From: Albidovulum denitrificans
GTDB lineage: Bacteria > Pseudomonadota > Alphaproteobacteria > Rhodobacterales > Rhodobacteraceae
Length of the DNA: 64,000 nt
NCBI RefSeq assembly: GCF_002973535.1
Contig: NZ_PVEP01000001.1
Coordinates: forward strand, 682,001-746,000
Direction: 5' to 3'
Shown: one piece after another, positions 1,471 to 64,000 of the stretch
Layout: every line of letters begins with the position of its first letter
Position numbering within the stretch: position 1 is the stretch's first letter
Position numbers and translations under genes: made by a program
The notes under the pieces: model-generated
What the model saw: only the letters and a program-made list of their open reading frames with translations
Database searches by the model: none
What the model was told of the DNA's origin: nothing

Positions 1471-1563
1471 TAAAGCGTTTCGGGTTTTCGTTGAGAGAGC
1501 ACGTATCAGAATCCGAACGAAACAAGTTCGAATTCTGATTCAACGTAAACCCGAAATGCTATA
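1471..1563 (-). repeat. 93-bp dispersed palindromic element, copy 1
   Basis: One of three copies of a nested imperfect palindrome, each exactly 93 bp. The outer arms are variants of AGCATTTCGGGTTTACGTTGA and the inner arms are variants of ATCAGAATTCGAAC. Read on the minus strand its left end encodes Y-S-I-S-G-L-R-stop and so forms the C-terminus of the histidine phosphatase gene. About eight mismatches separate it from copy 3. Confidence 0.9.
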
Positions 1564-2136
1564 GTCCTCCGCGTGGCGGATCTGCTGGCCACCCCGCAGC
1601 TCATAAACCACGCCCTGCCCGCCATCAGGGGCGCCAAGGTCGCGCCAGTCGGCATCCAGAAGCGCTGCGCGCAGGAACCGCGAGGTGATGCCATGGGTCA
1701 CAAGAACGGTCGGCCCGCTCACCTCACCCAGCAGCTCGGCCACACGGGCGCGCATCGACGCCATGCTTTCGCCGCCGGGGCATTGGAAATACCACTCGAA
1801 CGGCTGGCCGGGGTCGATCAGGCCGGGAAATCGGTCCTCGATCTCGGGATGGGTCAGCCCCTCGCACTGGCCGACCGACAGTTCCCGCAGCCGGTCGTCG
1901 GTGGCGAAGCCTTCGGTCAGACCCGCCAGCGCGTGACGGGCGGTTTCCTGCGTCCGGCCCAGCGGGCTGACGCGGAACGCTGTCCCCTCGGGCAGCCCGA
2001 TCCGGCCAAGGATCGCGCCCTGCCGCGCGGCCTGCGCGCGCCCCAGATCGGTCAGTGACGAATCGCGGCTGCCCTGCATCCGGCCTTCAAGGTTCCAGAC
2101 GGTCTGGCCGTGGCGCAGGATATAGATCGGGGGCAT
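1540..2136 (-). CDS. Histidine phosphatase family protein
   Basis: A 198-residue member of the phosphoglycerate-mutase-like histidine phosphatase superfamily. The phospho-accepting histidine is in the N-terminal RHG triad (IYILRHGQTVWN, residues 8-10), followed by the conserved LTDLGRAQA and SPLGRTQETA segments, the LRELSVGQCEGL acidic loop and the second histidine in LVTHGITSRFL. The substrate (sugar phosphate, nucleotide or protein) cannot be read from sequence. The ATG at 2136 follows a GGACCC stretch with only a weak ribosome site. The last seven codons (YSISGLR) and the stop come from the 93-bp repeat, so the native C-terminus was probably altered when the element arrived. Confidence 0.88.
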   Translation of the reverse strand: MPPIYILRHGQTVWNLEGRMQGSRDSSLTDLGRAQAARQGAILGRIGLPEGTAFRVSPLGRTQETARHALAGLTEGFATDDRLRELSVGQCEGLTHPEIEDRFPGLIDPGQPFEWYFQCPGGESMASMRARVAELLGEVSGPTVLVTHGITSRFLRAALLDADWRDLGAPDGGQGVVYELRGGQQIRHAEDYSISGLR

Positions 2137-19692: not shown

Positions 19693-20346
19693 TTACATGC
19701 CCAGCGCGGCCTTGACCTGCTGAAGTGCTGCGGCCAGCGCCTCGGGGCTGTCCTTGGCGGCCTCGACCGTCGCTTTCAGCGTCGCCTTGGTGTCTTCGGC
19801 AAGGGTCGAGTTGTCGATGGCGGTTTCGACCGTGGTCATGTCGAAGGTGGCCGGATCGAGGGCGGCGGCGACGGAATCGGCCGCGTCGCTGGCCATGGTC
19901 CCTGCGGCATCCGCCGCATCGCCCGCGGCCTCCATGGCGCTGTCGGCGGCCTCACCGGCGGCGGTGGCGGCGTCGCCGACCGCCTCGCTGGTCGCAGCGG
20001 CAGCGTCCGAGGCCGCATCCGTCGCGGCAGCGGTCGCGTCCGACGCAGCCTGACCGGCGGCATTGACAGCGTCGCCGACGGCATTGGCGGCGTCGCTGGC
20101 CGCATCCGTCGCCGCGGCGGCAGCGTCAGAGGCGGCCTTCGCGGCGGCTTCCTCGGCGGCCTTGGCCTCGGCTGCGGCCTTGGCGGCTGCTTCCTCCTCG
20201 GCGGCCTTGGCCGCAGCGGCCGCATCCTCGGCGGCCTTCTGCGCCATCGCGGCCTGCTCGGCCGCCTGTTGCTGGTTGGTGTAGTACCAGTACCCACCAC
20301 CGGCCAGAACGACCACGATCAGTGCGATCACCAGATTTCTGTTCAT
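19693..20346 (-). CDS. Membrane-anchored alanine-rich coiled-coil protein
   Basis: A 217-residue protein. Residues 5-22 (LVIALIVVVLAGGGYWYY) form one membrane anchor. Residues about 28-165 are almost entirely Ala, Asp, Glu, Lys and Ser in repeats such as AASDAAAAATDAASDAANAV, predicted helical and coiled-coil or amphipathic. A short non-repetitive C-terminus follows (DPATFDMTTVETAIDNSTLA then EDTKATLKATVEAAKDSPEA). The anchored N-terminus suggests that the helix projects into the periplasm. No domain is recognised; a spacer or envelope-stabilising part is a guess. AAAGAAATG precedes the start. Confidence 0.72.
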   Translation of the reverse strand: MNRNLVIALIVVVLAGGGYWYYTNQQQAAEQAAMAQKAAEDAAAAAKAAEEEAAAKAAAEAKAAEEAAAKAASDAAAAATDAASDAANAVGDAVNAAGQAASDATAAATDAASDAAAATSEAVGDAATAAGEAADSAMEAAGDAADAAGTMASDAADSVAAALDPATFDMTTVETAIDNSTLAEDTKATLKATVEAAKDSPEALAAALQQVKAALGM

Positions 20347-21120: not shown

Positions 21121-21924
21121 ATGCTGTCCTACCAGCATATCTATCACGCCGGGAACATGGCCGACCTGCACAAGCACGCGCTTCTGGCGGCGATGCTTGG
21201 CTACATGACCGCCAAGGACAAGCCGCTTTCCTATATTGAAACCCATGCCGGGCGCGGGCTTTACGACCTGACCGCGCCCGAGGCGGTGAAGACGGGTGAA
21301 GCGGCGGCAGGCGTGCTGCGGCTGGCCGACCGGCTGGAGGCGGACCACCCCTATCGCCGCGTGCTGGCGGGGGTGCGGGACCGCTACGGGCGCGATGCCT
21401 ATCCCGGCTCTCCCCTGATCGCGGCAGGGATGCTGCGCCCCGGCGACCGGATCACGCTGGCCGAGTTGCACCCGCGTGAATTTGCCGCGCTCAGCGCCAC
21501 CATGGCCCCTTATGGCGCCACCTGCCGACAAGAGGACGGGCTGCACCTCGCGCTGTCTGCCACGCCACCCGACCCGCGCCGGGGGCTGATGCTGATCGAC
21601 CCGAGCTATGAGGTAAAGGCGGATTACGCCGCCCTGCCGCCGCTGATCGCCAAGGTCCATGCGAAGTGGAACGTGGGCGTCATCGCGCTTTGGTATCCGA
21701 TCCTTGCCACGGGCGCGCATCGCCCCATGGTCGCGGCACTTCAGGCGGCGGGTTTCCCGAAGGCGGTGACAAGCGAGGTCCGCTTTCCCCCCGCGCGCGA
21801 AGGGCATGGCATGACCGGCAGCGGGATGTTCATCCTGAACGCACCTTACGGGACGGAATCAGAGGCCGCGCGGATCGCGGGGCTTTTCGCGGGGCTGTCC
21901 CAGAGCATTTCGGGTTTACGCTAA
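21121..21924 (+). CDS. rlmJ: 23S rRNA (adenine(2030)-N(6))-methyltransferase
   Basis: A 267-residue SAM-dependent methyltransferase that modifies A2030 of 23S rRNA. Family landmarks are MLSYQHIYHAGNMADLHKHA at the N-terminus, ETHAGRGLYDL (SAM site), PYRRVLAGVRDRYG, YPGSPLIAAGML, ELHPREFAAL and the catalytic DPSYEVKADY (DPPY-like, with Ser for the second Pro). The C-terminal codons S-I-S-G-L-R and the TAA stop come from copy 2 of the 93-bp element, as for the histidine phosphatase near 1.5 kb. The gene is convergent with the molybdopterin-binding protein gene. Confidence 0.93.
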   Translation: MLSYQHIYHAGNMADLHKHALLAAMLGYMTAKDKPLSYIETHAGRGLYDLTAPEAVKTGEAAAGVLRLADRLEADHPYRRVLAGVRDRYGRDAYPGSPLIAAGMLRPGDRITLAELHPREFAALSATMAPYGATCRQEDGLHLALSATPPDPRRGLMLIDPSYEVKADYAALPPLIAKVHAKWNVGVIALWYPILATGAHRPMVAALQAAGFPKAVTSEVRFPPAREGHGMTGSGMFILNAPYGTESEAARIAGLFAGLSQSISGLR

Positions 21925-21993
21925 ATCAGAACTCGAACTTATTTCTTTCGAATTCTGATACTTACGCTCTCAACCCAAACCCGAAACGCTTTA
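21901..21993 (+). repeat. 93-bp dispersed palindromic element, copy 2
   Basis: Same length and nested-palindrome layout as copies 1 and 3, but more diverged. Its left end encodes S-I-S-G-L-R-stop of rlmJ, and its last bases (TTA at 21991-21993) are the stop codon of the convergent gene. It therefore fills the whole gap between two genes and ends both. Confidence 0.9.
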
Positions 21994-22992
21994 ACGCTTC
22001 TCCCTCGGCTGCGGACGGGTCGGGATTTCCTTCAGAAGCCCGCCGATGCCCATCGCCGCGATCGCCTCTTCATCCGGCACGATCCCGCAGGCGATCCGTT
22101 CCAGCACGAAATCCGCCCCGTTCAGCGCGGGCGAACGGGCGCAGCCCGGCAGGCCGATCACCGGCCGGTTCCCCAGCGCGCCGTAGAACAACAGGTTTCC
22201 CGGATCGACCGGCAGCCCGAACCGGGTGACCGTACCGCCCGCCTGCCGCACCCCTTCGGGGGCGACGTCATGGCTGTCCGATGTTGCGGCCCCGGTCAGG
22301 ATCAGCGCGATCTCCCCCCTCAGCCGGGCCAGCGCCGCCGCGATCTCGCCCGCGTCATGGGGGACGCTGACCGTCTCGGCCAGATCCATCCCCAACTGGG
22401 TCAGCCGGGTCCTGACGGCGGCCTCGGCCTTGGCGCCAAGGTCCTTTGTCACGCCGGGCGCCTCGGTCAGCACCAGCCCCGCCGACCGCCGGACCACCGG
22501 GCGCACCCGCACCGCGCCCGCAGCACCCGGCAAGGCGCGGTCCAGCGCCGCGCCCGCAATGGCATAGCTGATGACCTTGACGGTGCCGACCAGCGTCCCT
22601 TCCGCCACGCGGGCAAAGGGCGCGACCACCGCCAGCGTCAGCGACGGGTCGGCGCGGTTCAGCGCCATGACCCTGGACGGGTCAAGCTCCACCACCCCCG
22701 GCCCCAGCGCGTAGAGATTCACCCGCCCCTTCTCGGCCCGCGTCAGGCGCAGATGCGCCGCCGCCGGGTCGGGGACGATGGCGGCCGCCAGACGTGTCGC
22801 TGCCTCATCCTCCCCCACATCGCCGGGGTCGAGCCGCGCCACCGTCACCGTGGCGATCCCGGCGCCCGCGATCTCGGCCAGATCGGCCACCGTCAGCACC
22901 CGGCCCTTCGGCATCTTTCGCGGCCCAAGCTGCACCGAATGCGCCAGCACCGCGCCTTCGGCCTGATCCACGGGAAGCGCGCCGAACCACAT
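21991..22992 (-). CDS. Molybdopterin-binding (MoeA/MogA-like) protein
   Basis: A 333-residue protein. The N-terminal part (WFGALPVDQAEGAVLAHSVQ, then LTVADLAEIAGAGIATVTVA) resembles the first domain of MoeA-like proteins. The C-terminal part has the MogA/MoaB-type molybdopterin-binding core: RGEIALILTGAATSDSHDVA, GTVTRFGLPVDPGNLLFYG and VIGLPGCARSPALNG, corresponding to the GLPGNP loop of MoeA. It overlaps the XdhC gene by ATGA. With XdhC, CoxE-like and MoxR genes nearby, a role in making or inserting the Mo cofactor of a xanthine/CO-dehydrogenase-type enzyme is likely. Its stop codon lies in the 93-bp repeat. Confidence 0.82.
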   Translation of the reverse strand: MWFGALPVDQAEGAVLAHSVQLGPRKMPKGRVLTVADLAEIAGAGIATVTVARLDPGDVGEDEAATRLAAAIVPDPAAAHLRLTRAEKGRVNLYALGPGVVELDPSRVMALNRADPSLTLAVVAPFARVAEGTLVGTVKVISYAIAGAALDRALPGAAGAVRVRPVVRRSAGLVLTEAPGVTKDLGAKAEAAVRTRLTQLGMDLAETVSVPHDAGEIAAALARLRGEIALILTGAATSDSHDVAPEGVRQAGGTVTRFGLPVDPGNLLFYGALGNRPVIGLPGCARSPALNGADFVLERIACGIVPDEEAIAAMGIGGLLKEIPTRPQPREKR

Positions 22993-37380: not shown

Positions 37381-37473
37381 TATAGCATTTCGGGTTTGCG
37401 CTGCATCAGAATTCGAACCTGTTTCGTTCGAATTCCGATACTTGCTTTCTCAACGAAAACCCGAAACGCTTTA
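37381..37473 (+). repeat. 93-bp dispersed palindromic element, copy 3
   Basis: The same 93-bp nested palindrome, lying between the convergent glycan-cluster gene (stop at 37368) and the deacetylase-like gene (stop at 37511). Here it is wholly intergenic. It is about 91 percent identical to copy 1 by eye. Confidence 0.9.
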
Positions 37474-63963: not shown

Positions 63964-64000
63964 TATCAGCAGATCGCCCGCGCGGGACGCGCAGCCCATA
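63961..64000 (-). CDS. Possible C-terminal end of a minus-strand gene (cut by window edge)
   Basis: The last 40 bases could encode a C-terminus ending ...GCASRAGDLLI-stop on the minus strand, placed just behind the hairpin at 63936-63960. The piece is too short to identify or to tell from chance. Confidence 0.2.
   Translation of the reverse strand, partial: MGCASRAGDLLI

Follow-up and report, generated by a model that had tools for sequence, protein, structure and literature searches.

The window analyzed here is a 64,000-nucleotide stretch of the Albidovulum denitrificans genome (positions 682001-746000 of contig C1 in a 4.1 Mb assembly of 23 contigs, labeled G000 below; G013, G020, G008 and similar labels denote genus-mates). 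It contains three copies of a 93-bp element, each with nested inverted arms, and the first bases of a fourth (Table 1). An original prediction had described the three copies, and its coordinates and lengths proved exact. In the same orientation the three are 84%, 88% and 91% identical to one another, and the outer arm motif TTTCGGGTTT occurs six times in the window, always within their arms, against 0.02 occurrences expected from shuffles. Searched with Rfam at gathering thresholds, the window yielded one tRNA only, leaving the element without a covariance-model match. The prediction also had the left end encoding an SISGLR-stop terminus for the histidine phosphatase and RlmJ, and the right end of copy 2 providing the stop of the convergent molybdopterin-binding gene, and both statements hold. 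Its more general claim, that the copies form the stop codons of their neighbors, is correct for copies 1 and 2 and wrong for copy 3. Elsewhere in the window, a minus-strand reading frame at 19693-20346 lies over numerous GC-rich, degenerate direct repeats (families D1, D4 and D12).

Table 1. Copies of the element and the genes they adjoin in the window
Feature	Position	Strand	Remarks
Element copy 1 (TA...TA)	1471..1563	-	Its left end has taken the place of the histidine phosphatase stop codon
Histidine phosphatase (PF00300)	1540..2136	-	Final 7 codons (YSISGLR) and stop are element-encoded
Element copy 2	21901..21993	+	Both ends in stop codons; double-stop site, with one TA common to both stops in the reconstructed empty site
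RlmJ (PF04378)	21121..21924	+	Predicted 260 aa ending ...AGLS* at the empty site; now lengthened by QSISGLR
Molybdopterin-binding domain gene (PF00994)	21991..22992	-	Convergent with rlmJ; copy 2 provides its TAA stop with the right end
Element copy 3	37381..37473	+	Flanked at 12 and 37 bp by two convergent genes; forms no stop codon
Fourth copy, first 4 bases	63997..64000	+	Runs beyond the window end; C1:745997-746089 in the genome

A repeat family of fixed length

A strict search pattern built on both outer arms retrieves 73 copies from the genome and none from a reversed control, and a covariance model built from 20 copies finds 109 distinct places. The latter figure is from one run of the model that scored 150 of its 1058 candidates, and the genome therefore holds at least 109 copies, so that the case of only three copies genome-wide, which would have spoken against a mobile unit, does not apply. 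Counted with both terminal TAs, the length is 93 bp in 99 of the 109, 92 bp in seven, and 94, 84 and 76 bp in one each. The 99 full-length copies include two identical pairs and differ from the consensus at 6.5 positions on average and at one position at the minimum; the identical pairs and this minimum suggest, on sequence similarity, that the element was active fairly recently. Terminal inverted repeats (TATAGCATTTCGGGTTT / TAAAGCGTTTCGGGTTT) are present, and 77 of the 109 copies have TA at both ends. The family thus has the features of a MITE: a short, non-coding unit in many near-identical copies with fixed ends (109 copies, 99 at 93 bp).

Two further aspects of the copies concern their internal sequence and their distribution. 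A GANTC motif of the CcrM type occupies element columns 23-27 in 83 of the 99 full-length copies, its middle base mostly A or C (window 1537-1541, minus strand, in copy 1). Regulation by CcrM through this motif is a weak candidate reading: the motif is common, but the divergence of its four fixed columns (0.043, n = 99) is near that of the median column (0.040), against a mean of 0.067 for the other columns. At C1:250391-250425 the outer arm motif forms a 35-bp palindrome (TTTCGGGTTT...AAACCCGAAA) that leaves no space for the inner part; judging from the arms, it may be a copy with an internal deletion. Copies also cluster, with three inside 1.4 kb on C5 (64359-65739) and two whose starts are 151 bp apart on C1 (423455-423698).

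Insertion target and host stop codons

When copies are oriented so that TATAGCATTTCGGG is on the left, the first TA mostly follows C or T and the last TA mostly precedes A or G. The flanks are CTA/TAG in 27 copies, CTA/TAA in 26, TTA/TAG in 14 and TTA/TAA in two (n = 109); among the remainder, some have intact TAs with another neighbor (CTA/TAT in five, CTA/TAC in three) and most have mutated ends. The target is Y-TA-R, as for a non-autonomous TA-duplicating MITE. Because TAR is itself a stop codon (TAG or TAA) on either strand, the target TA can lie inside the stop codon of a host gene. We rebuilt each empty site as left flank, TA and right flank and called genes on it by codon usage, using a script trained on the window (and retrained for relatives) rather than a standard gene finder. 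By these calls the target TA is within a host stop codon in 78 of the 109 copies, in non-coding, non-stop sequence in 30 and in coding sequence in one. Across five thresholds of the gene caller the stop-linked copies number 78, 78, 75, 73 and 68 of 109; 19 of 20 stop-linked genes drawn at random from 86 complete ones have a Pfam match, and codon periodicity upstream of the target is seen in the base profile of 75 sites.

For comparison, unused YTAR sites were collected from the window and from the flanks of all 109 copies, with overlapping flanks counted twice. Apart from 68 coding sites, 37 of these 165 lie in stop codons and 128 do not, a marked difference from the 78:30 of the element (Fisher p = 2e-16). 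Divided by junction, the unused sites are stop/non-stop 22/9 at convergent, 13/47 at tandem and 0/53 at divergent junctions and 2/19 at edges; the corresponding figures for the copies are 63/8, 15/17 and 0/5, with one coding. Inside one junction class the enrichment is modest (convergent, 63/71 vs 22/31, p = 0.04; tandem, 15/32 vs 13/60, p = 0.02). Most of it comes from copies at convergent junctions, where stops make up most of the few YTAR sites, with a smaller additional preference for stops, which favors site supply plus selection, rather than targeting of stop codons, as the principal cause.

The alternative, that an enzyme or guide actively seeks out stop codons or gene 3' ends and that the bias reflects targeting, not survival, has several observations in its favor. 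Among the 37 least diverged copies, single-stop insertions already show a 19:1 orientation; double-stop sites are over-used (18 filled, with only three unused ones found); and the target stops, 63 TAG and 33 TAA, differ from those of other genes in the flanks (180 TGA, 48 TAG, 40 TAA) and of the window genes (48 TGA, 12 TAA, 4 TAG). We nevertheless consider it improbable, given that 31 of the 109 copies lie off stops, mostly at the same YTAR target, that unused YTAR sites at convergent junctions are already mostly stops (22/31), and that selection on the element-borne stops is visible, as described next.

Stop codons supplied by the element

The two ends act differently on the genes that read into them. 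The right end, TA-AAGCG, gives all 75 genes that enter it a new stop immediately (TAA in 63, TGA in seven, TAG in five), and this stop is retained in 75 of 75 copies so used vs 24 of the 34 others, having been lost in ten (p = 3e-6). The left end reads TAT AGC ATT TCG GGT TTA CRC TGA, and among the 21 genes entering it, 11 carry the exact seven-residue extension (Y/H/S/Q-SIS-G/C-L-R/H), closed by TGA except in copy 2, where the tail stop is TAA. The other ten end immediately with TAA or TAG, a stop that the left end shows in only 4 of 88 cases elsewhere (p = 5e-6). These retention contrasts at the right and left ends are the best evidence that element codons serve as gene stops under selection. 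Restoration of the left stop by late mutation is a weak explanation, since copies with an immediate stop are no older than those with the extension; the immediate stop could predate insertion or follow it, and a variant end may have been what inserted. The SISGLR tail described in the original prediction is real, but the main feature is insertion into stop codons, mostly by the right end and with no residue added (75 vs 21 genes).

We regard as probable that the element is a non-autonomous, TA-duplicating MITE of about 93 bp, near-palindromic, which inserts at Y-TA-R and whose hits in stop codons are tolerated through its ends. The copies, ends, target motif and stop positions, the conservation of element stops where they are used, and the shorter C-termini of relatives are all observed; the movement would be cut-and-paste with duplication of TA, and selection rather than active stop targeting would be the main cause of the pattern. 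In this GC-rich genome YTAR is rare within genes and mostly confined to spacers and to TAG or TAA stops, so that stop codons are a main supply of tolerable sites. A gene entering the right end meets TA+A, or TAA, immediately, and the insertion would be survivable; a gene entering the left end gains YSISGL(R/H) before a TGA, or ends immediately where A or G stands in third position. Selection would then keep the element-borne stop and disfavor insertions that extend the protein, with a right-end bias as the outcome.

Transposons need harmless sites, and ends that rebuild stops seem to make the stop codon a safe harbor for a TA-targeting element: spread with little harm would be possible where the element's ends replace the stop signal that its insertion breaks. 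In one genome, by the codon-usage gene calls, element-borne codons form the ends of 75 genes on the right side and 21 on the left, and the left-end copies serve as a natural experiment in lengthening a C-terminus and restoring a stop. The combined test of YTAR target, frame, orientation and retained stop is applicable to any TA-duplicating MITE in GC-rich genomes. A bolder version, which we think unlikely, is a mobile stop-codon cassette whose spread is tied to host stops, one of its ends having evolved to rebuild the stop that it enters, with a preferred orientation transcribed as a near-perfect 3' hairpin and about 96 host genes ending on transposon-encoded stops.

Orientation bias and RNA folding

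Copies in a single stop codon show a strong orientation bias, the right end facing the gene in 57 vs 3 left in G000, 13:3 in G013 and 12:4 in G020. Tandem copies away from stops are also biased, with the right end facing the gene in 15:3 in G000 (one of the 15 overlaps a called gene) and 33:12 when pooled with the relatives (p = 0.002); the relatives alone give 18:9 (p = 0.12). Selection against the seven-residue tail explains the direction of the single-stop bias and only partly the 57:3 strength; acting alone, it predicts fewer than 18 double-stop insertions and also fails to explain the 15:3 bias of the tandem copies.

Genes that read into the right end transcribe the minus strand, for which the consensus folds at -48.4 vs -35.4 kcal/mol for the plus strand. 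By inspection, four differences between the arms pair as G-U in the minus strand and are A-C mismatches in the plus strand, and the minus strand is the more stable in 100 of 107 copies in G000 and the less stable in six. Together with the 57:3 and 15:3 biases, these values could point to a cassette acting at the RNA level, kept or placed so that genes transcribe the minus strand and its near-continuous hairpin protects or ends the mRNA; a possible terminator or RNA-end structure had also been raised in the original prediction. As a reading of modeled folds, this appears rather doubtful: the copies share ancestry, making 100 vs 6 close to one observation; the minus strand is better in the relatives by only 26:16 and 28:15 (p = 0.06 and 0.17); base pairs on the model's structure decay freely, with 106 broken cells vs 80 one-sided and nine two-sided changes and little compensation; and the U run after the outer hairpin never exceeds three on either strand. 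Minus-strand stability, strong in G000 and weak in relatives, was accordingly left as a weak explanation of the bias. An RNA family is likewise a weak reading, given no Rfam match for the element at gathering thresholds and an RNAalifold covariation term of 0.08 (20 copies).

Distribution and empty sites in relatives

The strict pattern is found in seven of 61 genomes, all of one genus, with 73 (the window's own genome), 19, 8, 3, 1, 1 and 1 copies. Across the family, in 295 genomes from 294 genera, only the own genus matches (G000 and G002), with an exact pattern that would miss diverged copies in other genera. An exact half-element pattern (31 positions, four free) also matches Defluviimonas aestuarii and two MAGs, Rhodobacteraceae bacterium WOFB24 and Alphaproteobacteria bacterium 8_bin.76. 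The covariance model gives 59 matches in G013 and 95 in G020, with matches on both strands counted; these are diverged subfamilies that keep the architecture. The sequence distribution suggests a family at the level of the genus, with expansions that took place separately.

Occupancy varies among relatives, the RlmJ, phosphatase and L081 sites being empty in those read. RlmJ has a match in 20 other genomes of the genus, and in the 17 where its end is readable (all but G020, G004 and G021) the protein is 258-265 aa long and never ends in SISGLR (0/17), consistent with the 260 aa, ending in ...AGLS, predicted for the window gene at its empty site; SISGLR is therefore not a general terminus of RlmJ orthologs. 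For the phosphatase, whose relatives are taken as orthologs on identity, the distance from the RHG motif to the C-terminus is 184 residues in the empty-site reconstruction, 183 in five relatives with an empty site (46-53% identity) and 189 in two more at 43%. With 109 copies, fixed ends and this varying occupancy, the proposal of a mobile unit of fixed length whose frame carries a stop is supported. The one clean filled/empty pair is L081 against G008, in which a tight convergent junction aligns on both sides and the G008 stop is TGA, not TAG, with two fewer bases; the target has thus diverged, and a single-TA empty site is not among the relatives' junctions seen. The L094 and L095 sites are also element-free in G008, with diverged junctions.

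We analyzed 42 copies of G013 and 43 of G020, roughly the top of each match list, with some near contig ends skipped. With the retrained gene model, G013 has 19 right-end and nine left-end stop uses, six copies using both, and G020 has 13 and five, with one both; seven of the 85 copies lie inside called genes (four in G013, three in G020). A first pass with the window-trained model had given fewer stop-linked copies, 8/22 and 8/21. Retention of the right-end stop is 19/19 in users vs 12/23 in other copies in G013 (p = 3e-4) and 13/13 vs 27/30 in G020 (p = 0.54), and left-end stops are present in 5/9 vs 3/33 (p = 0.006) and 2/5 vs 1/38 (p = 0.03), respectively. The two relatives, with their diverged subfamilies, thus show the same stop pattern as G000, more weakly.

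Relation to known elements

Among described repeats, RUP of Streptococcus pneumoniae is close in kind: 107 bp, repeated 108 times, bounded by TA and targeted to TA, with stops in every one of the six frames and movement proposed to depend on the IS630-Spn1 transposase, according to passages of PMC2229807. By description it resembles the element in size, copy number, termini and targets, and differs in its proposed IS630 partner, for which G000 has no match above the cut-off; the RUP passages of that source are silent on placement in host stop codons, the main trait of our element. The same passages describe the Correia elements, or NEMIS, of Neisseria as small TA-ended repeats with a 107-bp form whose reading frames are fused to others (PMC2229807); as described there, these contribute longer coding stretches, whereas our element for the most part either restores a stop codon or appends seven residues. 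CIR of Caulobacter, Brucella and other alphaproteobacteria is an intergenic repeat of about 110 bp with GANTC, whose RNA is given as two arms joined by a linker and whose mobility is called unclear (excerpts of PMC2229807 and, for the repeat itself, PMC10969869). On those descriptions it is like the element in size, intergenic location, alphaproteobacterial host and GANTC, but is set apart by its two arms and linker, where the element is one end-to-end hairpin with a clear spread of copies.

REPs are also palindromic, present in high copy and near gene 3' ends, but measure 20-40 bp in the relevant passages of PMC2817692 / PMC3733652, against 93 bp here. A REP/RAYT-type system mobilized by a Y1 transposase would suit a palindromic, extragenic element with more than 100 copies; it is nonetheless extremely improbable, as PF01797 has no match in the element-rich genomes G000, G013 and G020 (it occurs in only two of 22 genus genomes, G017 and G012), and the TA ends and symmetric YTAR target are unlike REPs as those passages describe them. 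The original label of a REP/MITE-type insertion therefore stands in its MITE part, through the TA-duplicating features, and fails in its REP part, by length and the lack of a Y1 match in G000. We regard the element as a real MITE-type family with an unusual relation to host stop codons, with no earlier description in the literature searched. No bacterial MITE located in stop codons is reported in that literature, a weak negative since the papers searched lie mostly outside subscription journals; in the text available of a 2024 review of prokaryotic MITEs (PMC10969869), 'stop codon' occurs 0 times.

Candidate mobilizing enzymes

TA at both ends and a YTAR/CTAG-like target are also the end features of IS630 and Tc1-mariner elements. 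IS630 prefers CTAG and duplicates TA. The IS630 model NF033545 has no match above the cut-off in G000, and DDE_3 has none in G000, G013 or G020 and is above the cut-off in three of 22 genus genomes (G001, G015 and G009); around the six DDE_3 loci of these three, every arm match had at least 4/17 mismatches, and exact 11-mer inverted repeats ending in TA were absent. An autonomous IS630 partner was set aside, with no match above the cut-off in G000, a contig-end match that scores better as IS3, and DDE_3 genes with no matching ends nearby. Judged on sequence, the element would work like a TA-duplicating MITE whose likeness to IS630/Tc1-mariner concerns ends and target only, with no related transposase matched; the mobilizing enzyme may belong to another family, be lost, or lie in assembly gaps. 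The contig ends at C14:59600-59803 and C16:39-251 (L132, L131) have in common a 308-bp identical stretch with the start of an IS3-family transposase gene, an assignment given by the best NCBIfam match, which is partial and below the cut-off; the assembly was probably interrupted at these points by an insertion sequence present in several copies.
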